This document shows positions 5,040-42,792 of a stretch of 64,000 nt of DNA, one piece after another. This stretch comes from Gemmata massiliana. GTDB taxonomy: Bacteria; Planctomycetota; Planctomycetia; Gemmatales; Gemmataceae. The position numbers and the translations under genes are program-made. Each line of letters begins with the position of its first letter. Position 1 is the first letter of the stretch. Where the stretch lies: positions 868,001-932,000 of the forward strand of contig NZ_LR593886.1 of the NCBI RefSeq assembly GCF_901538265.1, read 5' to 3'. The notes under the pieces were generated by a model. The model did not search any database. It was not told where the DNA came from and saw only the letters and a list, made by a program, of their open reading frames with translations.

Positions 5040-6515
5040 ATGACGGACGAATTGGCCGAGGCGCTGGTCGCGGTGTTCGAGCGCCTCGGGCCGTATGTCT
5101 GTTCAGACCCGCACCTGCGCGACGCGGTCCACAATTTAGGTCGGGCCATATCGACCTGGACCGACCAGTTCTCGCCTTCGCCCGCCCCTCACGTTCCCGC
5201 GCGCACCGATCTCGCGCCCACGCACCCGCCGGTCGTGATCCCCGCGGACTTCTCGCTCGCCCGGCCACCGGACCCGGTTCGCCCGCTCGCGCTCGCCGAC
5301 GACGAGGTACACGGGATCGTGCCCGTCGACCTCGCCGTGATCGCGCGCCGGTGCCATTTGAAGGCCGAGGCCGCGCGCGTGATTGCGGCCCGGAAGCGCG
5401 GAGGCGCAGCCCCTGCTCCCAATGATCTCATTCAGCAGGCGAACGAGTTGCCTGATTGTGACTTGTGGATGCTGCACCCCGGCGACTACGTGGACGCGCC
5501 GAAGGCGTGGGAAGACCTGGGCGGGGCGTTCGCGGTCGGTGCGGAAGCGGCGACCCTGCTCGCGGCCCTCCGGGACTTGCCCGACGCGCTTGCCGAGCGG
5601 CACCGCGAGCGCGTCCTGTACGCGGGGGCCGAGGCTCAGGCTCTGATGTGGGCCGGGGTGCTCGACGTCCACCGGCGCGCGGACAACGACCAGGTCCACC
5701 TGTTCGTTCACATCCGCGAGTACGCCCGCAACGCCCACATCTACATCAACCGGTACCTGAAGAAAGAGGACCGTGTGTCCGCGGACCAGTGGCCCGCCCT
5801 GCTCAGCCGGCTCGCGGTGCTGCGCGACGAACTGGCCGAGGCCCGCGGAAAGGCCCGGCACCGCGAGAAGGGGCTGACGAACCTCAAGTACAAGTTGCGG
5901 AAGATGGCCGACGTCCCGCTGAATGCGGCTGGGGAATGGCCCCGCGTGCTGGAGTTGCTGGAAGAGGTCGTCAGCTCTGGTGTACCCGCGAGCAACGCCG
6001 ACATCCGCGAACTGCTCCTTCCGGTTCTCGACACGCTTCCCGAAGACCAAGAACCGGGACCGAACGCGGAGCGCGTGTTCAGCGCGGTCAACGAGTACCT
6101 CGCGACGCGGCCTGCACCGGCGCCCGGCGCGGACAGTGAGGAGCCGGCCGTCGAGATCCGGTCCGTGGCCGAGTTGCTCCGCGGGCGGCAGGTGGTGCTG
6201 ATCGGCGGGGTCGAGCGGAACGTGGCGCGGCGCTCCATCGAGCACGCCTTCGGGCTGAGCGGGCTGAACTGGGTGTCCACGCGCCCGCACGAATCTGTCA
6301 CCGTCTTCGAGCCCGCAGTCGCGCGCGCGGACGTGGCCGTGGTGCTGCTCGCGATCCGCTGGGCGAGCCACAGTTACGGGGACGTGAAGGGCTACTGCGA
6401 AAAGTACGGCAAACCGATGGTGTACCTCACTGGGGGCTACAACCCGAACCAGATCGCCCACCAGATTCTGACGCAGGTCGGCGACCGGCTGCGGTCCCTG
6501 GAACGCGCGGGGTGA
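5040..6515 (+). CDS. Protein with C-terminal DUF2325-like domain
   Basis: Unrecognised 491-residue soluble protein. The last 110 residues resemble the DUF2325 family: a Rossmann-like VVLIGGVERN strand and turn, a middle stretch HESVTVFEPAVARADVAVVL, then WASHSYGDVKGYCEKYGKPM and a terminal amphipathic helix. The N-terminal half is alpha-helical and has no domain I can name; residues around 270-300 look like a coiled coil. I chose the ATG at 5040 over an in-frame ATG at 5016 because MTDELAEALVAVFERL starts a clean amphipathic helix. It is divergent from the TIGR03067 pair and convergent with kbl. Function unknown; the DUF2325 call is moderate. Confidence 0.75.
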   Translation: MTDELAEALVAVFERLGPYVCSDPHLRDAVHNLGRAISTWTDQFSPSPAPHVPARTDLAPTHPPVVIPADFSLARPPDPVRPLALADDEVHGIVPVDLAVIARRCHLKAEAARVIAARKRGGAAPAPNDLIQQANELPDCDLWMLHPGDYVDAPKAWEDLGGAFAVGAEAATLLAALRDLPDALAERHRERVLYAGAEAQALMWAGVLDVHRRADNDQVHLFVHIREYARNAHIYINRYLKKEDRVSADQWPALLSRLAVLRDELAEARGKARHREKGLTNLKYKLRKMADVPLNAAGEWPRVLELLEEVVSSGVPASNADIRELLLPVLDTLPEDQEPGPNAERVFSAVNEYLATRPAPAPGADSEEPAVEIRSVAELLRGRQVVLIGGVERNVARRSIEHAFGLSGLNWVSTRPHESVTVFEPAVARADVAVVLLAIRWASHSYGDVKGYCEKYGKPMVYLTGGYNPNQIAHQILTQVGDRLRSLERAG

Positions 6516-6531: not shown

Positions 6532-6803
6532 GACGGATTGGCCACAAAAAGGCACAAAGGGCACAAAAGAAAGCAGAAGACAGAGAGCAGGAAAAGAGCC
6601 GCGGATCACGCAGATAACGCGGATCAGACAATACGAAGAGCGCGTACTCAGTTAGCCCTCACCGCGCTTCAAACAAACTCGGTTCTTCGCCTTCTGATCT
6701 CGGTCCTTTGCTCTCCGCTTTCTTTTGTGCCCTTTGTGCCTTTTTGTGGCCAATCTGCTTTGGTTTTGATCCGCGTTATCTGCGTGATCCGCGGCTCATT
6801 CCC
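6532..6803. repeat. Interspersed foldback element, copy 1 (family C)
   Basis: About 270 bp filling the gap between two convergent genes. Arm A (6538-6573) is perfectly inverted at 6718-6753 (36 nt). Arm B (6596-6626) is perfectly inverted at 6767-6797 (31 nt). The arm order is A-B-core-A'-B', so the two stems interleave rather than nest. The core (about 6627-6717) and arms match, in opposite orientation, the element at 28486-28751. No coding potential is seen. Confidence 0.9.
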
Positions 6804-6828
6804 CGCCCCCCTTGGGGCCAATGCTCAT

Positions 6829-8019
6829 TTACTTCAGCACGCCGAGTTGCTTGCCGACTTCCGTAAATGCAGCGATCGCGCGGTCGATCTGTTCAGGCGT
6901 GTGCGCCGCGGACACTTGCATCCGGATGCGTGCCTGGCCGTGTGGCACCACCGGGTAGCTGAACCCGATCACGTAAATGCCGCGCTTCAGCAGTTCGTTC
7001 GCCATGTTCGTTGCGACGGCCGCGTCGCCGAGCATGACGGGGAGGATCGGGGTCGGGCCGGGCTTGATCGTGAACCCGGCCGCTTCGAGCGCGCCGCGGA
7101 GGCGCGCCGTGTTCGCTTTGAGCTTCGCACGCAGTTCGGTCGCGTTCTCGGCGAGTTCCAGCGCCTTCATTCCGGCCGCGACCAGTGACGGCGGCACGCT
7201 GTTCGAGAACAGGTACGGCCGCGACCGGTTCCGCAGCCAGTCCACGATCTCAGCGCTCGCCGCGGTGAACCCACCGCTCGCACCGCCGAGCGTCTTACCG
7301 AGCGTACCCGTGATGACGTCGATGCGGTCCAGAACTCCGAGTTCCTCCGCGCCCCCGCGCCCGGTAGCGCCCAGGTGCCCGGTCGCGTGGCAGTCGTCGA
7401 TCCCCACCGCGGCCTTGTACTGGTCGGCGAGTTGACAGATGTCGGGCAGTTTGGCGAGGTCGCCGTCCATGCTGAACACGCTGTCGGTGAAGATCATCTT
7501 GAACCGGCAGTTCTTCGCCTCTTCCAGCTTCGACTTCAGGTCCGCCATGTCGTTGTGCTTGTAGCGGAAGCGCTGGGCCTTGCAGAGCCGGACGCCGTCG
7601 ATGATTGAGGCGTGGTTGAGTTCGTCGGACAGGATCGCGTCCTGTTCCGTGAGGAGCGGCTCGAACAGCCCGCCGTTGGAGTCGAAGCACGAAATGTAGA
7701 GGATGCTGTCGCCCTTACCGAAGAACCGGGCGATCTGCTGCTCGCAGCGCTTGTGGATGTCCTGCGTGCCGCAAATGAACCGCACGCTGGAAAGCCCATA
7801 ACCCCATTCTTTGAGCCCGTCCTGTGCCGCGCTCACGATCTCGGGGTGGTTCGCGAGACCGAGGTAGTTGTTCGCGCAGAAGTTCACGACCTCGGCGCCG
7901 TTCACCGTGATGCCCGACATTTGCGGCGAGGAAATCCGGCGCTCGGCCTTGTACAAACCTTTGGTTTTGAGGTCGTCGAGTTGGGTGCGAAGGAACGCAT
8001 TGATGTCGTCGGCCGGCAT
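6829..8019 (-). CDS. kbl: Glycine C-acetyltransferase (2-amino-3-ketobutyrate CoA ligase)
   Basis: PLP enzyme of the alpha-oxoamine synthase family that, with threonine dehydrogenase, converts threonine to glycine and acetyl-CoA. Starting at [18 protein letters not shown] gives 396 residues, matching the usual 395-400. Signatures include [15 protein letters not shown], the [16 protein letters not shown] region around the PLP-contacting Asp/His, and the Schiff-base lysine in [13 protein letters not shown]. The C-terminus has the usual [17 protein letters not shown]. An upstream in-frame ATG at 8097 would add 26 residues without homology, so I rejected it. No tdh gene is visible nearby. Identity is firm at the family level. 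Confidence 0.93.
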
Positions 8020-10892: not shown

Positions 10893-10911
10893 TCGGGTGA
10901 AGTAAGAATTC

Positions 10912-10950
10912 GCCACGGATAAACACAGAGAACACGGATCAGAACAGAAG
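10912..10950. repeat. Dispersed repeat of GCCACGGAT type (family C, B-arm)
   Basis: GCCACGGATAAACACAGAGA and the following ACACGGATCAGAACAGAAG match, in inverted orientation, the sequence at about 12937-12986. The two copies flank the sigma-factor gene. This copy lies just after the stop of the helicase gene. It is related to the B-arms of the elements at 6532 and 28486. Confidence 0.7.
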
Positions 10951-10985
10951 AAGAGTTTGGGACGGGATTAACACCGGATCGAAGC

Positions 10986-11052: not shown

Positions 11053-12624
11053 TTACTCGCCGCTCAAGTCGGCCATCGACTCCTCGGACGTCGGGTTGGC
11101 CCTGAGTAGGTCCGCGGTCGGTAGCGGCTTACCGACCAGCGCTTCCCACCGCTTCCGCTGGTCGGCGGTGAGTACCTTCAATGCGGTCTCTAAAACGGCA
11201 TCCTGTTCCTGTGCCGTCCGCTCCAGTCGCGCGTTCTGGATCACGTTCAGTGGCGATCGGACGGGGCCGAGGGCCGCGACGATCCGGTCTTCCTGTTCGG
11301 CGGTTAGTTGCAGTTCGCGGATGGCGACCCGGTCCAAAAGCCCGCGCGGGCCGGCCGCCTGAAGGACCGCTTGTTTCAGTCGCTTCACCCCGGCCGGGGA
11401 GAGGACTTCGGCGGCTTTTTTCGCCACTTCTACTTCCAGTTCGCGCTGGCCCTTCAGGTATTGATCGAGCGCTTCGGCCGCGGCCAGGTCGCCCGGCCCT
11501 CCGCCGTTCTGCTGGCCCCGAGCCTTTTGGACGCCCCCGCCATTCTGCTGACCACCGGCCTGGAAGCCGGCCTCCAACCGCTTCTTTAAGGCGACCCGGC
11601 GCTCTTTGCGGAACTCCACCAGGGTCTTGTAGTCGTCAGGACTCAGCCCGATCTCCTTTCGCACCGACGCTTGACGCAATAGACCGGCCACCATGTTCCA
11701 TTCCACGCGGTCGAGGGCCGGCTTGGTGTCGCCCGGAGTCGGTTTGGCGTCGGGGATTGGGGCGTTTGGCACCGGGGCCGCAATTCCGTTCGAGATAATC
11801 GCGCCACCGGCCAGTGCCACCGCCGACGCGACCAGCAGGCCGAGGCCCAACTGCCGCAAGGGAGCCCACGTCATGGCGTTCACCACTTCCGAAGTGAGGG
11901 CGGTTACCGCCGGGGGAACGCTGCCCCCGGTGGCCGTCGCCACGGTCTGTTCGATCAATCGCAGCGGAACACCCGCTACGAGTTCGGACCACCCACCAAC
12001 GGCGGCTATTGCAGCGAGGGTGATTCCTCGCCTCGCCAGTCGCTTCGCCAACTCTGCCCGACCACGGCTCAGCCTCGTGGCCACCGTTCCCACCGGCCAA
12101 CCGAGTTCGGCCGCGGCCTGGGCAATGGTCAGTCCTCGCAGCCCGCACAGCACGATCGGCAGGCGGAAGTTGTCCGGCAGCCGGCCGAGTTCCTCGTCCA
12201 CCGCGGGCCGCAACTCGGTGTCCATCTCTCCCTCCGGTGCGGGGCGGTCGGGCGGGTGAGGCACAGCTACTTCGCGGAGCTGTCGTCGCTGCCGGGTTTG
12301 TCGCAATTTGCGCGCGGCGAGGCAAGCGACCCCGTACACCCACGCGGCCACCCGACCGGGCGGGCGGACCGTCCCGGCTTTGCGAGCGAGCACGAGAAAG
12401 GTGGTCTGGAAGGCGTCGTCGGCATCGGCGCTGTTGCCCAGGTAGCGACAACAGACCCCGAACACCGTTGGTCCGAGCCGGCGGACGAGTTCACGGAACG
12501 CGGCCTCGTCCCGCGTGCGGACGAACCGGCCGAGCAGGTCGGCGTCGGGTTCCGCCCGCTCGCGAGCGGCCGTGAACGCGCCCCACAGCCGGCCGGTCCC
12601 CCCGCGGTTCACCGAGTCCACCAC
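11053..12624 (-). CDS. ECF sigma factor with membrane segment and LTxxQ-like tail
   Basis: 523-residue planctomycete-type ECF sigma factor. Region 2 spans about residues 28-95 (DLLGRFVRTRDEAAFRELV, then DADDAFQTTFLVLARK). Region 4 spans about 140-200 (LPDNFRLPIVLCGLRGLTIA; GWPVGTVATRLSRGR). A predicted membrane helix at about 257-279 separates these from a roughly 240-residue C-terminal part that would be outside the cytoplasm. That part is helical and Gln/Gly-rich and has LTAEQEDRI and LTADQRKRWEALVGKPL, reminiscent of LTxxQ motifs of CpxP/Spy proteins. Start is GTG 12624 with AGGAG 6 bp upstream. No separate anti-sigma gene is adjacent. Sigma identity is strong; the sensor idea is inference. 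Confidence 0.9.
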   Translation of the reverse strand: MVDSVNRGGTGRLWGAFTAARERAEPDADLLGRFVRTRDEAAFRELVRRLGPTVFGVCCRYLGNSADADDAFQTTFLVLARKAGTVRPPGRVAAWVYGVACLAARKLRQTRQRRQLREVAVPHPPDRPAPEGEMDTELRPAVDEELGRLPDNFRLPIVLCGLRGLTIAQAAAELGWPVGTVATRLSRGRAELAKRLARRGITLAAIAAVGGWSELVAGVPLRLIEQTVATATGGSVPPAVTALTSEVVNAMTWAPLRQLGLGLLVASAVALAGGAIISNGIAAPVPNAPIPDAKPTPGDTKPALDRVEWNMVAGLLRQASVRKEIGLSPDDYKTLVEFRKERRVALKKRLEAGFQAGGQQNGGGVQKARGQQNGGGPGDLAAAEALDQYLKGQRELEVEVAKKAAEVLSPAGVKRLKQAVLQAAGPRGLLDRVAIRELQLTAEQEDRIVAALGPVRSPLNVIQNARLERTAQEQDAVLETALKVLTADQRKRWEALVGKPLPTADLLRANPTSEESMADLSGE

Positions 12625-12983
12625 GGCCTTCTCCTGGCAGGTTGCCCGAACACCCTGATTCTCCCGCTGCGGGGGGAATTTATTCAGCAGAGTGGAAAAT
12701 AACGAGTGGCCTCAGAAGTGGTGCGAACGGCCTACGCCGGTGTAGCTTTCAGGCGAACGGCCGGTGTGAGCCGGCCGGTGCGTTTTCAAGCAAGAGGCGT
12801 GGGTACACAGGACACAAGGGTTTCCGCTCTGTGACCCAAGAAACGCATACCGGCCGGCTCACACCGGCCGTTCGCCTGCGAACCATATCGACTGGTGCGT
12901 TTTCAATCCGGTTGATCCTGTTAATCCTGTCCAAAACTCTTCTGTCTTCTGCTCTGATCTGTGTTTTCTGTGTTCATCCGTGG
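12625..12983. repeat. Repeat-filled intergenic region (families A, B and C)
   Basis: This is the gap between the sigma-factor gene and the phosphodiesterase gene, both on the minus strand. A foldback with family A arms spans 12752-12780 and 12848-12876 and encloses a shorter imperfect stem (GGGTACACAGG with CTCTGTGACCC). Then comes a family B block around 12909-12931 (GGTTGATCCTGTTAATCCTG) and, from about 12937 to beyond 12984, the inverted partner of the 10912 repeat. A partial family A arm is also seen at about 12722. No gene is apparent here. Confidence 0.8.
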
Positions 12984-13802
12984 CTAATTCTTCTGTTTTT
13001 CCTCTTCCCTCAAGAATTTCTCCAGGTCCGCGAGCTTGTCGGTGTTCAGAAAGTCCACTCCCGCGTCGAGCAGTTCCTTCCACACCTCGACCTTATCGGG
13101 CGTGGCCCAGAACCGGACCTTGCGCCCCTGTTTGTGGGCCTTCGCGACGAGTTCGCGGAGCTTCTTGCGCTCGGCGTCCGGGATCGGGCCGGTTCCGTCC
13201 CACTTGAACAGTGTGCGCCACGACTCGCTGACCCACGGAACGAGCGCAGCAGACGTGGTGCCGTCCAGGTCGGCCGGGCGCCCGTCGAGCGCCGCGAACC
13301 GCGTCTTCTGTTCGGCGACCGCCTTCGCGTCGCGGTTCCCGCTGATGACGATCGTGACGGCCTTCACCTCGGTTTTGCCGTCGCGCGTGACGGTGAGCAG
13401 GTCCGCGTAGTTCTCCAGCACCTTTGTGAGCGCGGCGAAGGTCTCTTTCGCGTCCGTTTTGACGTCGATCATGAGGTGGAACGCGGGGCCTTTGGGGTAC
13501 ACGGTGCCGCCGTTGGCCTTCGCGAGTTCCCGGAGCGGGTCGAGGTACAGCTTCTCCAGCGTGCGCCCCGCCTTGAGTTGGAGCGGCGTGTGCCCGACGA
13601 GCAGTTCCCCCTTCACGAGCCAGATGTCGGCTTCCACGCTGCAAAAGCCGCAATCGAGCGCGTCGAACAGCGGGCGCGCGTGTTCGTAGTCGTTGTGCGC
13701 GTGTGCCCGGGGTAGGGGAGCGGCCATTTTCTTCGGCGGCTCGGCGCCGGCGCCCGGTGCGGCGAGCAGGCACGCGCCGAGCGCAACGTAGAACGAGGTC
13801 AT
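12984..13802 (-). CDS. Secreted glycerophosphodiester phosphodiesterase-like protein
   Basis: 272-residue exported protein of the PLC-like phosphodiesterase TIM-barrel superfamily, in the AIM6/GDPD-like group. A signal peptide (MTSFYVALGACLLAAPGAGA) precedes the HAHNDYEHARPLFDALDCG motif, which supplies catalytic His and Asn, then VEADIWLVKGELLVGH with acidic metal ligands. Downstream strands include FHLMIDVKTDAKETF and VTIVISGNRD. The product ends in a charged EEEKQKN tail. The stop codon lies inside a dispersed repeat (family C), so the C-terminus was probably fixed by repeat insertion. Substrate unknown; enzymatic activity is inferred from retained motifs. Confidence 0.85.
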   Translation of the reverse strand: MTSFYVALGACLLAAPGAGAEPPKKMAAPLPRAHAHNDYEHARPLFDALDCGFCSVEADIWLVKGELLVGHTPLQLKAGRTLEKLYLDPLRELAKANGGTVYPKGPAFHLMIDVKTDAKETFAALTKVLENYADLLTVTRDGKTEVKAVTIVISGNRDAKAVAEQKTRFAALDGRPADLDGTTSAALVPWVSESWRTLFKWDGTGPIPDAERKKLRELVAKAHKQGRKVRFWATPDKVEVWKELLDAGVDFLNTDKLADLEKFLREEEKQKN

Positions 13803-20434: not shown

Positions 20435-20610
20435 CACAGGGCTCCCGCCCTGTGTTACGGAGATCGGCCCCTCCGGGGCGAAAAACAACGAACCACCGAC
20501 CGCCGCGACCACTCCGGCCAATCGCGCATCACGTTCTCGGCTCGCGTCGAAAACCAATGCCTTCCACCCCGAACGGGCCGGCGTTCGTAGCGCGGGGCTC
20601 CCGCCTTGCG
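20435..20610. repeat. Foldback element, family D
   Basis: The left arm is CACAGGGCTCCCGCCCTGTG then TTACG (20435-20459). The right, more degenerate arm is CGTAGCGCGGGGCTCCCGCC (20586-20605) and a few bases more. Inside, CCCCTCCGGGGCG on the left is partnered by CCCCGAACGGGCCGGCG on the right. The layout parallels 35754-35923, where the arms are perfect. It stands directly after the SMI1/KNR4 stop. Confidence 0.7.
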
Positions 20611-20785
20611 TTCTCATTGTGCGCACGGATTAGTTCGACGTGAGTACGGATCGGCAAGTCTCATCTTTCACAATTTTAAAACTTGCCTCTTGCCTGATTA
20701 ACCACCACTCGGGTAACGTCTGGTTGTCTGTCATTTCGTTGGTTACTCGCACCGATCATTCGCCCACTCTCCCGGGGGTTTTGTC
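20611..20785. other. AT-richer region upstream of DUF1559 gene
   Basis: This stretch is less GC-rich than the surroundings (for example TTTCACAATTTTAAAACTTG near 20665) and probably contains the DUF1559 promoter. I see no coding sequence or RNA gene in it. Confidence 0.4.
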
Positions 20786-21700
20786 ATGAGTCGTTTGACT
20801 CGCCACGGTCGCGCGTTCACGCTGATCGAACTGCTGGTCGTAATTGCCATCATCGCCATCCTGATCGGTCTGCTACTGCCCGCGGTGCAAAAGGTGCGCG
20901 AGGCCGCGGCCCGCATGAAGTGCTCGAACAATTTGAAGCAGTGGGGCCTGTCGATGCACGGGTACCACGACGCGGTGGGCCAGTTCCCGATGGGCGCGCG
21001 CAACAACCCGCGCCAGTCCTGGGTTATGTACCTGTGGCCCTATGTCGAGCAAACCGCGCTCTCGAGCAAGGTGAACTACCCAACCCAGCAGTTCTACGAG
21101 CCCCCGACCACGATCGGGAACACGATGACCGGGCTGTGCGGCGCGCGGGTCGCGATCTACTACTGCCCGACCGACAACGGCTCGGACCTGAACTCCCCGA
21201 GCGCGTACTACCAGCGCGCCCGCGGGAACTACGTGGTGAACTGGGGCAACGCCCTGTACGACACCGCGCCCCCCGCGGGGCAGGCCCCGTTCTACCACGT
21301 CGGCGGGAACCGGAGCACGCCGGGCAAAGTGGTCATGACCTCGATCACCGACGGGACCAGCAACACGCTGATGATGTCCGAGACGCTGATGGCCAAGAGC
21401 CCGGACGACAACGACTGGCGCGGGGACATCCACAACGACGACGGGGTGTTCAAGTTCATGACGCTGACGACCCCGAACTCGTCGGTCCCGGACGTGGTGA
21501 ACTGGGCCGTGGGGACCGACCCGTACATGCCGTACTCGACCGCCGGCTCGCAGTTCAGCGCGGCCCGGAGCCGGCACACGGGCGGGGTTAACGCGGCCCT
21601 GTGTGACGGGAGCATCCGGTTCTTCACCAACAGCGTCAACGCGACCGCGTGGTCGTACATGGGCACCATGAACGGCGGCGAAGTCGTTCCCAACCAGTAA
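20786..21700 (+). CDS. DUF1559 protein with prepilin-type N-terminus
   Basis: 304-residue DUF1559 paralogue. The leader [20 protein letters not shown] is followed by the pseudopilin helix and [20 protein letters not shown]. The remaining family blocks are [38 protein letters not shown] and the terminal [20 protein letters not shown]. It is shorter than the other four copies here, mostly in the variable middle. A lipoprotein gene follows after 13 bp. Probably processed by prepilin peptidase and envelope-exposed; partner machinery is not in the window. Confidence 0.92.
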
Positions 21701-21713
21701 CCGGAGGCGACCC

Positions 21714-22127
21714 ATGCGCGGATTCCGATGGGCCGGTGGGGTCGCGGTGCTCGCGGGCGCGGCCACACTGGTCGGGTGCTCCAATGAACCGGACCTGGTC
21801 GAGGTGACCGGGGCCGTGAGCTTCGACGGCGCGCCGGTCGAGGACGGGGCGATCCGGTTCTACCCGGCCGACGGGAAGAACCCGGCCGGGGGCACCATCA
21901 AGGACGGGAGGTACACGGCCACCAAGGTTCCGGTCGGGACGTCCAAAGTGGTGATCTCGGGGGCCAAGGTGGTGAAGATGAAGAAGATCTACAACACCGC
22001 CAACAGTCCGGAGATGCCGGTCACCGCGGAGTTGCTCCCGGACAAGTACAGCAAACCCGATAAGACCACGCTCACATTCGAGGCCAAGCGCGGCAGCAAC
22101 GAGAAGAACTGGGAACTGACGAAGTGA
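21714..22127 (+). CDS. Lipoprotein with carboxypeptidase-regulatory-like domain
   Basis: 137-residue probable lipoprotein: signal peptide ending VLAGAATLVGCSNEP. The mature part reads LVEVTGAVSFDGAPVEDGAI followed by RFYPADGKNPAGGTIKDGRYT, the beta-sandwich pattern of planctomycete carboxypeptidase-regulatory-like proteins. GGAGG precedes ATG 21714. It is the second gene of a DUF1559/lipoprotein pair; the same kind of partner follows the DUF1559 gene at 32637. A small hairpin and a strong terminator follow. Function unknown, envelope location likely. Confidence 0.85.
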   Translation: MRGFRWAGGVAVLAGAATLVGCSNEPDLVEVTGAVSFDGAPVEDGAIRFYPADGKNPAGGTIKDGRYTATKVPVGTSKVVISGAKVVKMKKIYNTANSPEMPVTAELLPDKYSKPDKTTLTFEAKRGSNEKNWELTK

Positions 22128-22187
22128 GGTTTGCCCGGTAAGCCCCGTCTGCAAGGGCGGGGTACCAACAGATCAGTTCAAAAACGA

Positions 22188-22218
22188 AGAAGCCCGATCC
22201 ACATTGGATCGGGCTTCT
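22188..22218. terminator. Bidirectional terminator
   Basis: AGAAGCCCGATCC (22188-22200) pairs perfectly with GGATCGGGCTTCT (22206-22218). It sits between two converging transcription units (21714 plus, 22264 minus). A-rich bases on the left and T-containing bases on the right suit both directions. A further hairpin of the type CCCCGTCTGCAAGGGCGGGG lies at about 22144-22163. Confidence 0.85.
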
Positions 22219-22263
22219 CGCATTGACGCGGGCCGGGCGACGGCCCGCGGTTTTGATCGCAAA

Positions 22264-23298
22264 TTATTCCGGATCGAGCGGGTTCCCGTCCGCACGCGAC
22301 GCGAGCTTGAACATGGCGCCCAGGCTGATGCTGTCGCGCAGGGACCGGACGGACCCGTCGCCCATCGCGATGTTGCACACCCCGGTGTGGAAGGCGTACA
22401 GCTCGCCCTGGTTCCAGGCGTTGATGGCCTGAGCGCCGGTCGCGTCCGAGGCGCCGTTGGCGACCTTGGCCGGCTTCACGCCGGGCGTCACCGGGCCCTT
22501 GGTTCCCGCGCAGACGATGTTGTTGCTCTCGCTCGCCCACGCCCCGCCGGTGAACCCTAGGGTGGCGGAGGTCGCGTACTGCTTGCCCTTCGCCCAGCCC
22601 TCCTGCCGCGCGCCCGATTCGCCGAGCATCATGGTGTTGCTCAGCCCGTCGGTGATGGCCATGAAGTTGGTGCGCTGGTTGGCGGTCAGCACCGCGTTGC
22701 ACACGTCGGTGCTCCCGGGGGCCGCCAGCCCGGCGCCGATCCAGGCGTTCGCGTTGGTGTTCGCGCGGCTCACGGGCCAGTAGTCGGACGTGGCCGGGAA
22801 GAACGTCGAGCTCGACGGGTTCGGGTTGATGACGTGCTGGGCGGGGGACGAGGGGCACTCGTAGGTCGGGATGCGGACGCTCGCCGCGGGCTGGTTCGCC
22901 GGGTCGTTCCAGTCCTTGGTGTAGTTGTACCCGCCGGCCGCGGCCGTCAGCACGTTCCCCTGCTCGATGTAGGGCAGCATCACCGACAGGAACCCGTGCT
23001 TGGCGTAGATCCCGCCGCTCGCCGGCGTCGGCGAGTAGAGGTACTCGTTCAGGCCGGGAATGGTGCTCCGCGTGGTCGTGTTCACGACGGCCGGTGGGAG
23101 CGACCCGTAAGCGCTCTCGTAGTTGTGGACCGCGAGCGCGAGTTGCTTGAGATTGTTCGAGCACTTCATCCGGGCCGCGGCCTCGCGGACCTTCTGCACC
23201 GCGGGCAACAGCAGCCCAATAAGAATAGCAATGATGGCGATGACGACGAGGAGTTCGATCAGCGTGAATGCGCGACGAGAACCGGGGTGAAAACGCAT
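22264..23298 (-). CDS. DUF1559 protein with prepilin-type N-terminus
   Basis: 344-residue DUF1559 paralogue. I start it at ATG 23298 ([20 protein letters not shown]), behind a GAGGGA site; a reading frame open further upstream to 23451 has no homology. The pseudopilin helix and [20 protein letters not shown] follow. Later blocks are [20 protein letters not shown] and [17 protein letters not shown]; note that the usual HTGG is HTGV here. It has no small lipoprotein partner downstream, unlike the other copies. It converges on the 20786-22127 operon. Confidence 0.92.
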
Positions 23299-23631
23299 CG
23301 CGTTCCCTCGGGAGGATAAGGTGACGAATCCCGGCGCGCGTGCTCCGCACCTTGCGGAGGGCCGGGCCGATCGATCACGTTTCCCCGTCGGGGGTCGGCA
23401 CCTGGTATGGGTGTCCGACGGCTTTGCGCTAGATTCTCGAACCGATCCCACACGCGAACGGGTCGGGTGCGGGTGTCTAAATTGGGGCAGGAGAGGCGTG
23501 GGCGTATGAGAATAGTAGACGAGCGCGGAAATCTTTCAAACGAAGAAATAATGAAGATGTGTAGGAATGATGAAGTGCGCGAACGGAAATTCGCCCGGCG
23601 CCTGAAATGACACCGGGCGCATCGTGTGGTC
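23299..23631. other. Intergenic region with weak hairpin
   Basis: A 333-bp gap between two minus-strand genes. It should carry the promoter of the DUF1559 gene. CGCCCGG (23592-23598) and CCGGGCG (23613-23619) form a 7-bp stem just past the stop of the TIGR03000 gene, a possible weak terminator. A 34-codon frame at 23506-23610 on the plus strand has no support. Confidence 0.45.
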
Positions 23632-24849
23632 TTACTTGCTGCCGAGCGAGGTGAAGTCCACCGTGATCCGCTCGCCGGCGCGGAACGGAACCTTCTGGCT
23701 CAGCGTTTCGGGCTGGCCGTCGCGAACGACTTCGGCCTTCAGCAGGTAGGCGAACTCGCGGTTCGCGGGCAGCGGCGGGGTCGCGAACTGGCGGACCGCG
23801 TCCTTCGAGGGGCTCTTGCGGTCGTCGACGTAGAGGGTCGCGCCCGGCGGGAGCTTCACGGTGATCGTCGCGCGGTCACCGGGGGCGGTCGGCGCGTCGC
23901 GGAGCGGCGGTTCAGCCTTTGTCGGCTCTTTCGATGCGGGAGTGACGGGCGCCGCGGGGGGAGCCGAGGTCGTTTTGCCAGCGCCCGACGCGGTCGGGGC
24001 GGCCGCATTCAGGGTCGCAAACTCGACCGTGAACGTCGCACCGGCCCGCACAGTGACCTTCTGCGTCCTGCTCACGGTCTCGCCGTTGAGGTCGTATTCC
24101 GCCTTAAATTCGTACACAAAATCTTGGTTCAACGGCAGTTCCGGGGAGACGAACTGGCGCTCCGCGCCGGTCAGGTTCAGTTGCCGACCGCCTGCGAAGA
24201 GCCGGGCTTCTGCGGGCAACTTCACGTTGACCGAAGCGCGGCCGGTCTGGGCGTTCGCGACGGTCGTCGTCGGGGACGAAGTCATCCCGGGGTGCAGCCC
24301 GAATTCGCCCGGCGCGGGGTTCGGGGAAGCGTAGGGGATCATCGGTTGACCCGGGTACGGGGGGAACGAGTCGCCTCCCGACGGCGGGTACACCATGTAT
24401 CCGCCCTGGCACGAGAGGCTGCTCCCGAAGCACGAGTACGCGGAGCCGGAGCAGGAGTACCCGGAGCACGAGTAGCCCGAACCCGAGCAGGACGAGCCGT
24501 AGCACGAGTGCCCCGAGCAGTTGTAGCTGCGTGACCCACAGCACCCCGACGGCTCGAACCAGCTCCGCACGCGGGCGCCGAAGCCGAGCCCGAAGACCCC
24601 ACCGCAGCACGACGAACTGTAGCAGGACGATCCGCTGCAAGACGAGCCGTAGCAGGATGATCCGCTGCACCCGTTGCACGAGGCCGGGTACGCGACCGCC
24701 CCGGAGCACCCGCCGCCGTAGCAACTATACCGCACCCCGCCGGAGCACCCGTAGCAACTGCTGCCGTGGAAGAGGTCACGGAAGTAGCCGTTAAATTGTG
24801 GGGTATCTGGGGATGCCGTTAGTGCGGTCATCAGCACGATGCTATACAT
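23632..24849 (-). CDS. Cys/Ser/Gly-rich protein with two TIGR03000 domains
   Basis: 405-residue protein. Residues about 31-147 are a low-complexity Cys/Ser/Gly/Tyr region with 20 cysteines, built from irregular units such as SCYGSSCSGSSCYSSSCC. A Pro-rich linker follows. Two TIGR03000 domains (planctomycete-specific, about 70 aa) lie at 206-277 (VNVKLPAEARLFAGGRQL) and 328-399 (ITVKLPPGATLYVDDRKS). ATG 24849 gives a short hydrophobic start (MYSIVLMTALTA), so export is possible but the signal is weak. The upstream frame continues opposite ctpA without homology and was trimmed. A structural, disulfide-linked envelope protein is plausible; function unknown. Confidence 0.85.
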   Translation of the reverse strand: MYSIVLMTALTASPDTPQFNGYFRDLFHGSSCYGCSGGVRYSCYGGGCSGAVAYPASCNGCSGSSCYGSSCSGSSCYSSSCCGGVFGLGFGARVRSWFEPSGCCGSRSYNCSGHSCYGSSCSGSGYSCSGYSCSGSAYSCFGSSLSCQGGYMVYPPSGGDSFPPYPGQPMIPYASPNPAPGEFGLHPGMTSSPTTTVANAQTGRASVNVKLPAEARLFAGGRQLNLTGAERQFVSPELPLNQDFVYEFKAEYDLNGETVSRTQKVTVRAGATFTVEFATLNAAAPTASGAGKTTSAPPAAPVTPASKEPTKAEPPLRDAPTAPGDRATITVKLPPGATLYVDDRKSPSKDAVRQFATPPLPANREFAYLLKAEVVRDGQPETLSQKVPFRAGERITVDFTSLGSK

Positions 24850-25086
24850 TGCGGTACCCGCCCAATGGCCTGTTAAATTGGGGGCTTTGAAAAGCCTACA
24901 GCGCGAGGATAACCGGCGGGGGTTGAGTGGGCAAATCGACTTGAAGTAATTTTTACATCGGGATATGCGGGCGAGGTTCAACTCCCGCGCGACACGCCCG
25001 TCACGTATAATCGGCACAACCCGATACGTTTGGCGTTTTGGTGTTCGGCGGGGCGCGTAACTGGCGCCGGTCACCGAGGAGACGAC

Positions 25087-26532
25087 ATGCCGCTTCGCAA
25101 TCTGGCCTGGTTCCTGGTGGTGCCGGCGATGGTCGGGCTGGCGCTCGCGATCTGCTTCAGCGCGCCCCCGCCGGACCGGGACTACGATCGCGTGCGCCAG
25201 CTCGTGAACGTGCTCGCGGAGGTGGACGCCAATTTCTACCGCGAGCTGACCGAGAAGGAGAAGCAGCAACTCGTCGAGAGCATGATTAACGGCGGGCTGC
25301 AGAAGCTCGACCAGCACTCCGAGTACTTCAACGCGGAGCAACTGAAGCGGTTCGAGTCCGACGCGCAGGGGAGCTTCGGCGGGGTCGGCATCTTGCTCAC
25401 CATCGACCCGCCGACAAAGTTCCTCAAAGTCAACCACCCCACCCCGGGCACACCCGCCTACGACGCGGGGATCATTGCCGACGACCTCATCGTGAAGATC
25501 GACGGCAAGTCCACCGAGGGGCTCACGGTACCCGACGCGCGGAAGCTCGTCGTCGGCGAGCCGGGCACGCCGGTCAAGCTCACCATCCGCCGGGCCGGGC
25601 GCAACCCCGCCGACGAAGAGGTGACGCTGACGCGCGCCCAGATCGCGCAGCACCCGGTTTCCGGCGTTCGGCGCCGGACCGACGACCCGAGCAAGTGGGA
25701 GTGGTTCCTCGATAAGGCCAACGGCATCGGGTACGTCCGGCTCAGCGCGTTCAACGAACTCACCGCGAAAGAATTGAAGGCCGCGGTCGAGGAGATCGAG
25801 CGCGACGGCGGGAAGGCGCTCGTGCTCGACCTGCGCGACAACCCCGGTGGGCTGTTGACTCAAGCGGTCGAGGTCGTGGACCTGTTCCTTACTGAAGGGA
25901 AGATCGTCAGCACGCGGAACCGGAACAACAAGGAGCGCGTGTTCGAGGCCAAGAAGGACGGCACGATCTTCCTACCGGCCGAGCAGAGGCCGATCGCGGT
26001 GCTGGTGAACGACGGCAGCGCGAGCGCCAGCGAGATCGTGGCGGCCGCGCTCCAGGACCACAAGCGGGCCGTCGTCATCGGCGAGCGTAGTTACGGTAAG
26101 GGGAGCGTGCAGAAGCTCCTGCGCCTGGGCGGTCAGGGCGACCAGCAGGCCGCGGTGAAGCTGACGACCGAGACGTACTGGCGCCCGAGCGGGGTGAACA
26201 TCGATCGCGTTCGTGCCCCAGAGGACGCACCGGACCAGTGGGGCGTGAAGCCCGACATCAACGTGCCGATGACGAAGGACGAGAAGATCCGCGCGGACGT
26301 GGAGCAGCTGCGGATTCATTGGGTCGCGGGCAAGCCGGACGTCGTCGGTCCCAAGCCGCCGCCCGCTCCCAACCCGCGCGGGCTGGACGGTAAGCCGCTC
26401 GTGGACGACTCGAAGCCGTTCGTGGACCAACCGTTGAATAAAGCCGTCGAGGTGCTCAAGAAGAGTATCGGTGGCGTGGGGCTCGCGCCCCCCGCACCCG
26501 CTCGCCGGCTGCCGGAGATGATCCTCGGGTGA
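25087..26532 (+). CDS. Carboxyl-terminal processing protease (S41 family)
   Basis: 481-residue periplasmic protease of the CtpA/Tsp type. An N-terminal hydrophobic anchor (NLAWFLVVPAMVGLALAICF) precedes a PDZ domain (about 90-185; GSFGGVGILL to VKLTIRRAG). The peptidase domain contains LDLRDNPGGLL, the nucleophile Ser313 in GSASASEI and the general base Lys338 in SYGKGSVQ, 25 residues apart as in Tsp. ATG 25087 has GAGGAGACG upstream; an earlier in-frame start at 25030 lacks support. The C-terminus is Pro-rich. The substrate is unknown. It is divergent from the Cys-rich TIGR03000 gene. Confidence 0.95.
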   Translation: MPLRNLAWFLVVPAMVGLALAICFSAPPPDRDYDRVRQLVNVLAEVDANFYRELTEKEKQQLVESMINGGLQKLDQHSEYFNAEQLKRFESDAQGSFGGVGILLTIDPPTKFLKVNHPTPGTPAYDAGIIADDLIVKIDGKSTEGLTVPDARKLVVGEPGTPVKLTIRRAGRNPADEEVTLTRAQIAQHPVSGVRRRTDDPSKWEWFLDKANGIGYVRLSAFNELTAKELKAAVEEIERDGGKALVLDLRDNPGGLLTQAVEVVDLFLTEGKIVSTRNRNNKERVFEAKKDGTIFLPAEQRPIAVLVNDGSASASEIVAAALQDHKRAVVIGERSYGKGSVQKLLRLGGQGDQQAAVKLTTETYWRPSGVNIDRVRAPEDAPDQWGVKPDINVPMTKDEKIRADVEQLRIHWVAGKPDVVGPKPPPAPNPRGLDGKPLVDDSKPFVDQPLNKAVEVLKKSIGGVGLAPPAPARRLPEMILG

Positions 26533-26607
26533 GCGCTTTTGGAAGGGAAGGGGGGCTTGGAAGGGAAGGGGCGAAAGTGTGAGCGGGTGAGGGGGTGAGA
26601 AATACCC

Positions 26608-26677
26608 CCCCCCGCTCGTTAGCACTCGCGGTTCGCCTGAGTCTCTTGGCGAACCGCGAGTGCTAACGAGCGGGGGG
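26608..26677. repeat. 30-bp perfect inverted repeat
   Basis: Arms 26608-26637 and 26648-26677 are exact reverse complements over 30 nt, with a 10-nt loop. The arm starts CCCCCCGCTCGTTAGCACTC. It is 75 bp after the ctpA stop. It may act as a terminator or be a mobile-type repeat unit. Its stem is the longest uninterrupted one after the 36- and 31-nt arms at 6532-6803. Confidence 0.9.
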
Positions 26678-26726
26678 AGCGACAACAAGGCGTGAGGGCC
26701 GGTGAAACGCAAACGCAAGAAGTGTT

Positions 26727-26803
26727 TTTGACAGGATTAACAGGATCGACCGGATTCAGAAAATAACTGCGCGGGCGGTCTTGATCCTGTCGATCCTGTC
26801 AAA
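26727..26803. repeat. Foldback of GACAGGATTAACAGGATC type (family B)
   Basis: TTTGACAGGATTAACAGGAT begins the left arm (26727-26751). GGTCTTGATCCTGTCGATCC begins the right arm (26777-26803). The arms are imperfect inverted copies around a 25-nt middle. Related single arms occur near 12909 and, degraded, near 8102. Confidence 0.8.
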
Positions 26804-26881
26804 TTGTTTCTGCATTTGGAGAGCACCACCGGCCGGCTCACACCGACCGTTCGCCGGTGGGCACGGCGAAAGGGTGCGCGG

Positions 26882-27658
26882 GTGACAGAGCCGAACGAAC
26901 GAAGTGAGCAGAGTGACGAGGCCGTAATCGGTGCCGGTGTGGGTTCGTCTCACCCCTTCGCCGCCCACGTGCTGTACGAAGACCACCACCTGCTCATCGT
27001 GAACAAGCCGGCGCCGCTACTCACGCAAGCGCCGCCCGGTGTGCCGAATCTCGAAGAGGTGGTCAAGTCTTACATCAAAGAGAAGTACGCGAAGCCGGCC
27101 GGGGTGTACCTCGGCGTTCCGCATCGGTTGGACCGGCCGGTGAGCGGGGTCGTGTGCTTCGCGCGCAACACCAAGGCCGCGCAGCGGGTTCACGCACAAT
27201 TCGCCGAGCGCAGCGTGCGCAAGGTGTACTGGGCGCTCGTCGAAGGCGTCGTGGATTCCGATGCGGGCGCGTGGGACGACTGGATTCGCAAGATCGCGGA
27301 CGAGGCTCGAGTTGAGCGCGCGGAGGCGGAAGCACCGGGCGCGAAGCTCGCGACGCTCGAATACCGCGTGCTCCAGCGCCTCGATTCGGTCACGCACATC
27401 GAACTCGAACCGCTCACGGGCCGGATGCACCAGCTCCGGGTTCAGACCGCGTGGCGCGGGCACCCGGTGCTGGGCGACACCATGTACGGCGGCACGCGCG
27501 CGTTCGGGCCGGCTGCGGAATTGCCGCGCGACCACGTTGTTGCACTTCACGCGCGCCGGTTGACCATCACGCACCCGTTCACGAAGCAAGAACTGACCGT
27601 CGAGGCCCCGCTGCCGGCCTACTGGTCCCCGCTCCTCGGTGCATCACTCGCACAATAG
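26882..27658 (+). CDS. RluA-family pseudouridine synthase
   Basis: 258-residue enzyme that isomerises uridine to pseudouridine in RNA. Family blocks: VLYEDHHLLIVNKPAPLLTQ, the catalytic motif PHRLDRPVSGVVCFARN with the nucleophilic Asp in HRLDRP, and TGRMHQLRVQTAWRGHPVLG (usual TGRTHQIR, here Met instead of Thr). I prefer GTG 26882 (VTEPNERSEQ) to an earlier ATG at 26804, because the latter would translate a dispersed repeat (26827-26855). No S4 domain is present. The target position (rRNA or tRNA) cannot be told. The 3' neighbour is the sod gene on the same strand, 115 bp on. Confidence 0.92.
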   Translation: MTEPNERSEQSDEAVIGAGVGSSHPFAAHVLYEDHHLLIVNKPAPLLTQAPPGVPNLEEVVKSYIKEKYAKPAGVYLGVPHRLDRPVSGVVCFARNTKAAQRVHAQFAERSVRKVYWALVEGVVDSDAGAWDDWIRKIADEARVERAEAEAPGAKLATLEYRVLQRLDSVTHIELEPLTGRMHQLRVQTAWRGHPVLGDTMYGGTRAFGPAAELPRDHVVALHARRLTITHPFTKQELTVEAPLPAYWSPLLGASLAQ

Positions 27659-27772
27659 TCGGCACACGGAGTGCATCCGCAACTTCGGCACGAGCCGGTG
27701 GCGTCGGTCGGGGCGCGTCGCTACGATGCCCCTGCCCACTCGTCGCCCCACACTCCGTAGGAGCCTTCCCAC

Positions 27773-28462
27773 ATGATTTCCCGTCGCGAACTGTTGCGTT
27801 CCGCTACCGCCGGCGCCGCGGCGCTGGCCCTCCCCTCGTTCGGCCGTGCGGACGACGCGAAGGGGTACACGCTGCCCAAGCTGCCCTACGCGACCGACGC
27901 CCTCGAGCCGAGCATCGACGCGAAGACGATGGAGATCCACCACGGAAAGCACCACCAGACTTACGTGGACAACCTGAACAAGGCGCTCGCCAAGACCGAG
28001 TGGCTGGGCAAGCCGATCGAGGAACTGGTGCGCGACTACAAGAAACTCCCGACGGAGCTGCAAGCGCCGGTGCGCAACAACGGCGGCGGGCACCTGAACC
28101 ACTCGTGGTTCTGGCAGATGATGACGAAGGGCGGCACCCCGCTGAAGGGCGAACTGCTGAAGGCCGTCGAAGCGAGCTTCGGCGGCGTCGACGGCTTCAA
28201 GAAGGAGTTCGCGACCGCCGCAACGACGCAGTTCGGCAGCGGATGGGCGTGGTTGGTGAAGGGCAAGGACAAACCGTTGGCCCTGGTGAAGACCGCGAAC
28301 CAGGACAACCCGATCACCGACGGCCACACCGTGCTGCTCGGGTGCGACGTGTGGGAGCACGCCTACTACCTGAAGTACCAAAACAAGCGCGCGGACTACG
28401 TGAATGCGTGGTTCAGCGTCGTGAACTGGGACTTCGTCGCCGCGCTGTTCGAGAAGAAGTGA
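27773..28462 (+). CDS. Tat-exported Fe/Mn superoxide dismutase
   Basis: 229-residue superoxide dismutase converting superoxide to O2 and H2O2. Metal ligands are His56 (MEIHHGKHH), His110 (GGGHLNHSWFW), Asp192 and His196 (DVWEHAYYLKYQ), as in the MnSOD/FeSOD family. The first 26 residues, SRRELLRSATAGAAALALPS, are a twin-arginine signal, so the enzyme should be exported already folded, unlike the typical cytoplasmic SodA/SodB. ATG 27773 follows a GTAGGAG site at 27759-27765. Downstream lies foldback element copy 2. Fe versus Mn preference is not settled from sequence. Confidence 0.94.
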   Translation: MISRRELLRSATAGAAALALPSFGRADDAKGYTLPKLPYATDALEPSIDAKTMEIHHGKHHQTYVDNLNKALAKTEWLGKPIEELVRDYKKLPTELQAPVRNNGGGHLNHSWFWQMMTKGGTPLKGELLKAVEASFGGVDGFKKEFATAATTQFGSGWAWLVKGKDKPLALVKTANQDNPITDGHTVLLGCDVWEHAYYLKYQNKRADYVNAWFSVVNWDFVAALFEKK

Positions 28463-28485
28463 GCGAGTGGGGAAGGAGAACAGAA

Positions 28486-28751
28486 AGAGCCGCGGATAAC
28501 ACGGATCACGCGGATCAAGACAGAAGACGGATTGGCCACAAAAAGGCACAAAGGGCACAAAAAAGAGAACAGAAGGCAGAGTTCAGAAATCAGAAATCAG
28601 CAGGCGAAGAGCCGAGTTCGTTTGAAGCCGTTAGGGACTAACCGAATACGCGCTCTTCGTATTATCTGATCTGCGTGATCTGCGTTATCCGCGGTTCTTT
28701 TTTCTACTCTCGGCCTTCTGTCTTCTTTTGTGCCCTTTTGTGGCCAATCTG
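28486..28751. repeat. Interspersed foldback element, copy 2 (family C)
   Basis: This matches 6532-6803 along its whole length, in opposite orientation. It shares the GGCCACAAAAAGGCACAAAG arms, the CCGCGGATAACAC/GTTATCCGCGG arms, and a core containing CGAAGAGCCGAGTTCGTTTG and TACGCGCTCTTCGTATTATC. By eye I estimate about 80 percent identity. Like copy 1 it sits between two convergent genes (sod and the DUF4337 gene). Confidence 0.9.
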
Positions 28752-28767
28752 CCTTTCCGGACTGCTC

Positions 28768-29355
28768 TCACCCCAGCCCCGGTAGTTTCACGAACAAGCC
28801 GTAGCCGTTGGTGCATAGCAGCACGCCGAGGCCGGCGAGGGCCAAGCTGCCGTAGAACGCCCAGCGCTTGCCCGAGAGCATCGCGACGGACGCGAGCACG
28901 ATCGCGATCTGGAGCAGCACTTCTGCGTAGTCGAAGTACGGGTCGCGCCGGGCGGCCACGTCGCGCTCGGCTTCGAGCTTCTTCGCGTCCTCCAGGATGT
29001 CCTTCTTTTCCTTCGCGTACTCTTCGGCCTTTGCCAAATACTTGTTCCGTGACTGTTCCATCCGGGTGCGCTGGGCGGGCTTCAGCTCGGTGCCGAGCAG
29101 GTCCATGTCCAGTTGCAGCTTTTCGGCCTCCAGGATGTACATGTTCTCGCGCATCACCTTCGCCTGGTAATACGCCCACTGGTTGCTGGCCTGTTGTTGG
29201 GCCATCACCATGTCTTTGCCGGCGTTGCTGCCGCCCAGCGCGGTGACCGCCAGCGCGACCGCGTACACGGCCACGCACAGCGCGATCTTCTTGGTGAACG
29301 GGTCGCCGGCCTTCTCTTCGGCTTCGTTCGGGTCGGGTACTTCGATATCGGCCAT
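28768..29355 (-). CDS. DUF4337 membrane protein
   Basis: 195-residue membrane protein of the DUF4337 family, function unknown. An acidic N-terminus (MADIEVPDPNEAEEKAGDPF) precedes one transmembrane helix (IALCVAVYAVALAVTALGG). Then comes a long charged coiled-coil-like segment with QQQASNQWAYYQAKVMRENM, and two C-terminal membrane helices (LLQIAIVLASVAMLSGKRWA and FYGSLALAGLGVLLCTNGYG). The QASN-W-YYQAK signature is typical of the family. It is convergent with sod across a repeat and divergent from the ECF/kinase locus. Confidence 0.88.
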   Translation of the reverse strand: MADIEVPDPNEAEEKAGDPFTKKIALCVAVYAVALAVTALGGSNAGKDMVMAQQQASNQWAYYQAKVMRENMYILEAEKLQLDMDLLGTELKPAQRTRMEQSRNKYLAKAEEYAKEKKDILEDAKKLEAERDVAARRDPYFDYAEVLLQIAIVLASVAMLSGKRWAFYGSLALAGLGVLLCTNGYGLFVKLPGLG

Positions 29356-42254: not shown

Positions 42255-42677
42255 ATGCGACAAGTCGTATTCGCGCTGACGCTGTTCGGTGCGGCGGTAC
42301 TAGCCACGAGCGGTCTGACCGCCGACGAACCCAAAAAGGACGAAGCGAAACTTACGAAGAAGGAAATCGCCAAGATGATGAAGGACGCGCACGACGGCGC
42401 GAAATCGCCACACGCGCGCACGCGCGCGGAATTGAAGAAGGACACACCCAACTGGGAGGAAGTCACCAAGGACGCGAAGGCGTTCACCGCGATGAGCGAG
42501 GCGTTCAAGAAGGTAAACCTCAACTACAAATCGCCCGACAAGTACATCGAGAGCGCTACCGCTCTGAGCAAGGCCGCTGGCAACAAGGACAAGAAGGCGG
42601 CAAACGAGGCGTTCACCGGGTTAACGAAGTCGTGTGCCTCGTGCCATTCCTATGGTAGCGCTCCGGGCGAGCGGTAA
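42255..42677 (+). CDS. Cytochrome c'-like heme protein
   Basis: 140-residue exported protein. After a signal peptide (MRQVVFALTLFGAAVLATSG) comes a Lys/Glu-rich helical region and a single CASCH heme-binding motif at residues 127-131, only 9 residues from the C-terminus. A C-terminal CxxCH following a helical bundle is the layout of class II cytochromes c (cytochrome c'/c-556). It begins 26 bp after the ECF sigma factor. It likely carries electrons or senses a gas ligand in the periplasm; the coupling to the sigma gene is suggestive only. Confidence 0.85.
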   Translation: MRQVVFALTLFGAAVLATSGLTADEPKKDEAKLTKKEIAKMMKDAHDGAKSPHARTRAELKKDTPNWEEVTKDAKAFTAMSEAFKKVNLNYKSPDKYIESATALSKAAGNKDKKAANEAFTGLTKSCASCHSYGSAPGER

Positions 42678-42679
42678 CG

Positions 42680-42792
42680 AAGAACCGCGGATTACGCGGA
42701 TAGACGCCGATCGAATCAGAAAAGAACGTTCAGATTCGTTCTCTGGTGTTATCTGCGTTCATCCGCGTGATCTGCGGTTCTGTTCTTTCGCA
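42680..42792. repeat. Foldback of CCGCGGAT type (family C, B-arms only)
   Basis: AGAACCGCGGATTACGCGGA begins the left arm and the right arm ends GTGATCTGCGGTTCT, with a second pair GAACGTTCAGATTCG/GTTC-like bases inside. It resembles the B-arms of the 6532 and 28486 elements but lacks the A-arms. It lies between convergent genes (42677 plus, 42817 minus), starting 3 bp after the stop of the first. Confidence 0.75.

Follow-up and report, generated by a model that had tools for sequence, protein, structure and literature searches.

The two related repeats at positions 6532-6803 and 28486-28751 of the window, by which we mean the whole 64-kb stretch of DNA analyzed here (positions 868001-932000 of the studied genome, G000, a single contig of 10.1 Mb), are probably gene-less, non-autonomous mobile palindromes of a family that is linked to the small protein GxxExxY and ends in inverted arms of tandem 9-10-nt units. 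Gene-bearing members of this family carry a single small gene, GxxExxY, which takes up most of the interval that the arms enclose. Neither window copy contains a gene, and the sole PF13366 match (TIGR04256, GxxExxY) of G000 lies elsewhere in the genome; the window copies are read as relatives of the gene-bearing form and not as examples of it.

A first-pass annotation of the window had described the two repeats as one element in opposite orientation, and BLAST bears this out with 81% identity over query positions 25-270. The arm order in copy 1 is interleaved (A-B-A'-B') as claimed when the arm coordinates are mapped, and of the two arms that were called perfect, the 31-nt run is so, while the arm given as 36 nt is really a perfect run of 39 nt. 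A common core had also been proposed, and a 62-nt arm-free piece is identical in 54 of 64 alignment columns between the copies, above the approximately 65% that the annotation had named as the lowest identity outside the arms for a single element; the global alignment score of this piece is 40, against a maximum of 6.5 among 500 shuffles. The features of the window are as follows.

6536-6577, + strand: copy 1 arm A, 42 nt of tandem 9-nt units of the CACAAA.GG type
6578-6595, + strand: copy 1 spacer between A and B, short; longer copies have a run of 7-nt units here (CAGAGGA CAGAGAT CAGAAGG)
6596-6626, + strand: copy 1 arm B, tandem 9-nt units, CGCNGATNA
6629-6690, + strand: copy 1 core common to copy 2, 54 of 64 columns identical
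6714-6755, + strand: copy 1 arm A', reverse complement of A with 1 mismatch in 42 nt
6767-6797, + strand: copy 1 arm B', perfect reverse complement of 6596-6626 (31 nt)
10904-10980, + strand: fourth member, left half, with outer arm CCACGGATAAACACAGAGAACACGGATCAGA and inner arm ACGGGATTAACACCGGATC
12914-12992, - strand: fourth member, right half of this split, nested palindrome
28484-28517, - strand: copy 2 arm B', pairing with 28667-28700 at 88%
28524-28562, - strand: copy 2 arm A' in two pieces, of which 28524-28552 pairs with 28727-28755 at 90%
28567-28601, - strand: copy 2 run of 7-nt units, read by eye (GAACAGA AGGCAGA GTTCAGA AATCAGA AATCAGC)
28667-28700, - strand: copy 2 arm B, partner of 28484-28517
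28727-28755, - strand: copy 2 arm A, partner of 28524-28552
42686-42776, no strand: third member, a palindrome of arm B only, between convergent called genes ending at 42677 and 42817

In its wider extent the B/B' pairing of copy 1 covers 6587-6626 and 6767-6806, with the perfect 31-nt run inside. Copy 1 lies between convergent gene ends, those of a DUF2325-like gene (under the family cut-off) and an aminotransferase gene, and the neighbors of copy 2, a superoxide dismutase gene and a DUF4337 gene, are also convergent. An open frame on the + strand (6538-7188; MATKRHKGHK... to ...LIRVICVIRG) crosses copy 1 and is probably spurious; periodic peptides of this sort are likely annotation artefacts produced by the arms.

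The element belongs to a large family. At up to 2 mismatches, arm A was found at 51 sites and arm B at 98 sites in G000, with no site for the reversed-pattern control of either, and BLAST with the element returned 132 pieces at 40 places. A pattern of three 9-nt B units occurs exactly at 64 places, copies 1 and 2 included (reversed control, 0). Further copies of the core or element, which the annotation had expected, were thus found beyond the window in G000 and in genomes of the genus, with element matches in 15 of 19 of the latter, G000 counted. Both arms consist of tandem 9-nt units, and units of 7 nt make up the stretch between A and B in the longer copies (identity at lag 7 of 0.54-0.69 in four copies and of 0.48 in copy 1, values given without a shuffled control). 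Among 15 aligned copies, six have all four arms as A-B-A'-B', seven have three arms in a compatible order, and the remaining two read B-A-B-A' and, nested, A-B-B'-A'; further places in G000 show A alone or B alone at the threshold applied. A nested ancestor, B-A-B-B'-A'-B', which would have given rise to the interleaving by loss of arms, was considered but is not proved, as the aligned set of 15 holds a single nested copy (L031) and a single copy in which B lies outside as well as inside A (L039). The two B arms of one element resemble each other more than those of different elements, with a mean of 1.9 mismatches in 22 B/B' pairs versus 3.2 when partners were shuffled (lowest value 2.36 among 10000 shuffles). 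A simple codon-usage gene caller placed 36 of 42 hand-picked two-arm places between genes, and we take the six called over a gene to reflect over-long gene starts. With the same rough gene calling, divergent gaps hold 1 of 41 element places versus 43 of 239 background gaps in the window and at the same loci (Fisher p=0.009).

Rearrangements are seen around several members. The palindrome at 42686-42776 is also present in the relative G009 with few changes. In the fourth member, the loop holds ~1.9 kb of DNA, including a sigma-70-like gene (11053-12624), in both G000 and G009; in G011 the two halves adjoin each other. An inversion of ~8 kb distinguishes G000 from G009, its nearest relative, at window positions 20474-28768. 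Copy 2 lies at one of the G000 breakpoints and is absent at both junctions in G009, where no element was seen by eye. An apparent G009 inversion broken inside copy 1 was dropped, given a contig that ends 142 nt past the match and a run of N at the other junction. At this contig end (G009:C1, 1754939), less than 150 nt past the copy 1 match, the repeat probably broke the assembly.

The annotation had pointed out that interleaved arms give stems that cross, and this is correct: the A and B stems cannot both form in one nested single-strand fold, which therefore holds just one of them. In the minimum-energy RNA fold of copy 1 (-131.1 kcal/mol, z -11.4), the A-A' stem forms and the B-B' stem does not, both pairs being complementary. 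The suggestion of a structured RNA found no positive support, as no Rfam model matched in the 64-kb window at its gathering score. A plant microRNA hairpin model, matched at a loose threshold (E 1.7e-5, 29.8 bits against a gathering score of 64), was dismissed as the response of such a model to a long hairpin.

The link to GxxExxY comes from the gene-bearing members. The GxxExxY gene of G000 is flanked by inverted 50-nt arms, GCCACGGATTAACACAGAAAACACGGATCAGA and its near inverse (locus L011, 1397-1446 and 1905-1954), and by our own reading its frame, 1447-1881, fills the gap. To score such arms at other loci, the best inverted match between the 400 nt on each side of the gene was taken and arms were called at a score of at least 15. 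Inverted arms surround GxxExxY at 29 of 31 Gemmataceae loci; displaced windows (57) gave a median of 10, a 95th percentile of 13.2 and a maximum of 35.5, and mismatched partners (310) a median of 10.5, a 95th percentile of 22 and a maximum of 36, the high control scores in this set arising because arms are shared and dispersed copies lie nearby. The family loci are the best-scoring matches and not a random draw (31 for GxxExxY, 30 each for the Y1 and IVP genes discussed below), and one of them, L103, has just 161 nt on one side. In a second set of named loci from many phyla, the best 80 of 558 from one peptide pattern with 78 testable, arms were found at 60 of 78 and the other 18 scored below 15; in the controls, a score of 15 was reached with mismatched partners 20 times out of 234, once in 234 shuffles and in none of 138 displaced windows. 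The labels of these loci include Bacteroidota, Chloroflexota, Verrucomicrobiota, Planctomycetota, Acidobacteriota, Spirochaetota, Desulfobacteraceae and others, and one small MAG contig of 3.4 kb labelled Methanosarcinales. L155 and L162 come from one genome, and L118 and L152 are apparently the same contig, counted in both sets. The median arm-to-arm distance is 436 and 421 nt in the two sets, approximately the length of the gene. Arms and GxxExxY gene are therefore associated across many phyla.

The arms around GxxExxY are periodic. Identity at lag 9 is 0.44 versus 0.29 shuffled in the family set, and across all phyla lags 10 and 9 reach 0.44 and 0.35 versus 0.27 shuffled; in G000 the arms of the gene have a spacing of 9-10 nt and the dispersed B arms one of strictly 9. 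Pairs that resemble arm A bracket GxxExxY in L095 (G026) and L340 (G092). A locus's own arm recurs within its flanks at 10 of 88 loci, and the arm of another locus does so at 1 of 88. At L254 (G025:C53, ~5500-6500), three units follow one another with arms that are almost the same: a gene-less palindrome, a GxxExxY element and a second gene-less palindrome. Against the proposed link, repeat and gene also occur apart. Element matches number 11, 15 and 21 in G012, G020 and G024, which have no PF13366 match, and the gene is present in G014 and G018, where the window element has no match; the repeats persist without the gene and the gene without the repeats, so that neither needs the other. No dose relation was found for the B arm, with one GxxExxY gene and 64 exact B sites in G000 and eight genes and 2 B sites in G018.

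The protein itself has the features of a nuclease. In 47 sequences, G35, E38 and Y41 of the GxxExxY motif are invariant, as are D77, E87 and K89 (D-x9-ExK), and Q101 and Y105 are conserved in at least 90%, a QxxxY spacing that we take to be reminiscent of the RecB/Cas4 group. The predicted structure is confident (pLDDT 89.7), and the top match of a fold search with this model was SSO0001 (Z 9.5, rmsd 6.2, 110 residues aligned), presumably a Cas4-like protein; the other matches had Z of at most 8.2 and included many PD-(D/E)XK folds, Hjc resolvases and XisH among them. A sequence search of the PDB gave no clear relative (best E 0.7) and PADLOC gave weak matches at most (E 0.0014). A PD-(D/E)XK fold is thus supported by the model, with no closer family, and GxxExxY is likely to be a working nuclease.

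Arms of other kinds accompany other small proteins. Genes for Y1 (RAYT, PF01797) are present in 79 of 95 family genomes, and G000 has 0 matches at E<=0.001. The annotation's statement that no transposase is present accordingly holds for both copies and for RAYT genes in G000, but a candidate partner protein, GxxExxY, does exist. Inverted palindromes within 600-nt flanks were found at 24 of 30 Y1 loci; they are GC-rich, of different sequence and with no clear period, and the window arm motif occurs within 1.5 kb of 3 of 30 Y1 loci versus 22 of 31 GxxExxY loci. Genes for the 23S IVP four-helix bundle (PF05635) have arms at 27 of 30 loci (maximum of 13 in 27 displaced windows) with a period of 7 nt, identity being 0.67 at lag 7 and 0.68 at lag 14 versus 0.29 shuffled. 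As the arms of Y1, IVP and GxxExxY differ, arm type goes with protein family, and arm period varies likewise. The arms of an IVP gene in G011 (L322), GGACAGAGGACAGAGGACAGAAGCC, resemble the 7-nt units inside the window element. G000 has two PF05635 matches, and the one examined (7229775) has other, weaker arms (score 17.5). The IVP genes within arms of 7-nt period (L288-L317, L322) are possibly a second system of like sort.

Comparison of sites among relatives shows that presence of the elements varies and that gene-bearing and gene-less forms have arm types in common. The G000 GxxExxY site was sought in 16 genomes, and half of them (8) gave information; the remaining 8 had either a much longer gap or no right-hand neighbor found next to it. 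The gene is present in G009, in G011 (plus a further insertion) and in G025 (with extra palindromes of nearly the same arm). In G017 and G019 the gene is missing and the site is occupied by an arm-A palindrome. G020 carries a different, nested palindrome there, G012 has an unrelated repeat, and inspection by eye showed no palindrome in G024. The insertion inside the G011 element (L239, 4481-5720) is transposase-like by eye. The copy-1 site was sought in 13 genomes, and both neighbors were found together in G011, G010, G016, G017 and G020; an orthologous element lies there in G011 and palindromes of other kinds in G010 and G016, G017 shows a short palindrome together with a small reading frame, and in G020 the element is absent and a short hairpin is present.

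Similarity limited to the stretch from arm to arm is seen in one clear case. L329 and L330, on different contigs of G018, are 82% identical over 982-1475, with arms at 982-1037 and 1425-1480, and no BLAST match was found outside that stretch in 2.5-kb pieces. Of 50 locus pairs alike across the gene, 43 have arms in the first locus; similarity does not extend past the arms in 34, many of which stop inside the arms because the loci are distant, and runs beyond them in 9, which fits inheritance at one site. Arm similarity is correlated with protein similarity (Mantel r 0.38, n=88 loci with an arm score of at least 15, L152 left out; reached by 0 of 2000 permutations), a correlation that shared descent alone could also produce. 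Around 87 gene-bearing relatives there was no sign of target-site duplication, with at least 5 nt in 5 of 87 versus 6.9% of controls. The idea of a non-autonomous mobile element, raised in the annotation, is supported by the copy number, by the absence of copy 2 in G009, by the arms in common with gene-bearing elements and by L329/L330.

That GxxExxY is the mover of these palindromes is possible, at somewhat less than an even chance, as judged from comparison of genes and arms. The protein would recognize the arms, probably folded into hairpins in single-stranded or cruciform DNA, and would cut and free the unit, or copy it, to other places, mostly gaps that hold a gene end, a bias that may simply mirror what survives. 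Gene-less units with fitting arms would use GxxExxY in trans. The interleaved A-B-A'-B' order and the internal 7-nt units may mark a composite of several arm types that arose where different kinds of arm met and that would now be copied whole.

It is unlikely, in our estimate, that the palindromes are host elements, such as two-way terminators or sites of nucleoid proteins, selected at gene ends, with GxxExxY merely landing in or beside them. The avoidance of divergent gene pairs (1/41 vs 43/239, p=0.009) and the strong hairpin (z -11.4) are what such elements would show, and the copy-1 gap holds different palindromes across relatives (the orthologue in G011, others in G010 and G016) as if one were needed. 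The accessible parts of a Geobacter metallireducens study also describe paired sites, mostly opposite-strand tandem units of 7 to 9 nt, that are read as IHF/HU regulator sites, in three classes: octanucleotide GTTGCTYN, TCTCCGTS[Y] and heptanucleotide MTYCTGA (PMC2700814). By eye and from the consensus as given there, class 2 resembles the 9-nt arms of GxxExxY loci and class 3 the 7-nt units of the window; the same parts hold no link to GxxExxY or IVP, and a further Geobacter paper treats multicopy sequences in general terms in the portion available (PMC3543383). However, a role for the host leaves unexplained the tight bracketing of GxxExxY by arms with a period specific to the protein family, the duplication from arm to arm (L329/L330) and the interleaved arms, which are unable to pair together in one nested fold, and G020 does without the element in the copy-1 gap, though a short hairpin is present.

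Other movers may also be envisaged. The general form of the window repeats, an extragenic, gene-less inverted pair, is that of REP/REPIN elements moved by RAYT (Y1, HUH) transposases, whose genes are common in the family (79/95 genomes), but the lack of any PF01797 match in G000 and the different palindromes of the Y1 loci (24/30, GC-rich, without clear period, with the arm motif near 3/30 vs 22/31) make this very improbable. We regard as somewhat unlikely an explanation that concerns the mover alone and overlaps with our reading of the window copies as gene-less mobile palindromes, namely that the arms are moved by an unidentified or host factor, for instance by template switching on hairpins, with GxxExxY and IVP as passengers. 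Gene-less copies in genomes without a PF13366 match, the lack of any sign of target duplication at 87 gene-bearing elements and the sigma-factor gene segment in the loop of the fourth member all agree with it, as does the better match of B arms within an element (1.9 vs 3.2 mismatches), which copying inside a hairpin would give. However, one would not expect a passenger to come with an arm period of its own (9-10 for GxxExxY, 7 for IVP) or with arms that follow its protein sequence, as in the Mantel test.

Among known systems, RAYTs are thought to cut or copy REPINs into new places, and the pairing of GxxExxY with the palindromes is best read, by analogy, as working in the same way. Like REPINs, the window family consists of extragenic inverted pairs in many copies that are capable of forming hairpins. 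In the accessible parts of the literature on REPINs and RAYTs, high-copy extragenic inverted pairs are described whose gene-less copies are dispersed and whose gene-bearing copy lies beside or between repeats (PMC3116915, PMC3733652). The window family differs in its long arms of 9-10-nt units, in a G000 genome without RAYT match, in an associated protein that is a predicted PD-(D/E)XK nuclease and not an HUH enzyme, and in that its repeat does not flank RAYT genes in relatives, where the palindromes are different. Intervening sequences of 23S rRNA, in which a small S23/IVP gene lies within inverted arms, are termed a selfish element in the accessible part of one report (PMC4990558). The IVP genes examined here likewise have arms of 7-nt period, and such units occur inside the window element; unlike those intervening sequences, the window copies carry no gene and are located outside 23S rRNA, with protein genes on either side. 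MITEs of DDE insertion sequences are also gene-less and dispersed with terminal inverted repeats, but a target-site duplication, which they would lead one to expect, shows no sign around the 87 gene-bearing relatives.

In the open-access literature, with subscription journals and preprints outside the scope of the search, no tie of such arms to GxxExxY was found and none of six arm sequences occurred. Nothing on these arms was found in work on palindromic repeats, Planctomycetes, Gemmata, 23S intervening sequences or REP-like elements, and GxxExxY, TIGR04256 or PDDEXK_3 are named in 2 of 5.39 million open-access papers, in neither of them with a repeat context in the accessible part.

To our knowledge, no role has been assigned to GxxExxY (TIGR04256/PF13366) or to the IVP four-helix bundle, both of them common small proteins, and we know of no explanation for most periodic intergenic palindromes. 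A wider proposal, which we hold more tentatively than that of GxxExxY as the mover, is that GxxExxY is a lone RecB/Cas4-like nuclease that would read periodic inverted arms and move elements throughout the Bacteria (and on the one 3.4-kb MAG contig labelled Methanosarcinales), that many gene-less copies would live off it, that IVP would be a sister mover acting on arms of 7-nt period, and that arm period would serve as a recognition code. With each protein tied to a distinct arm period, GxxExxY and IVP both gain a testable role at once. The window repeats and their relatives point to a little-noticed type of mobile DNA which, if the proposal is true, would be a nuclease-based counterpart to the REPIN/RAYT pair.
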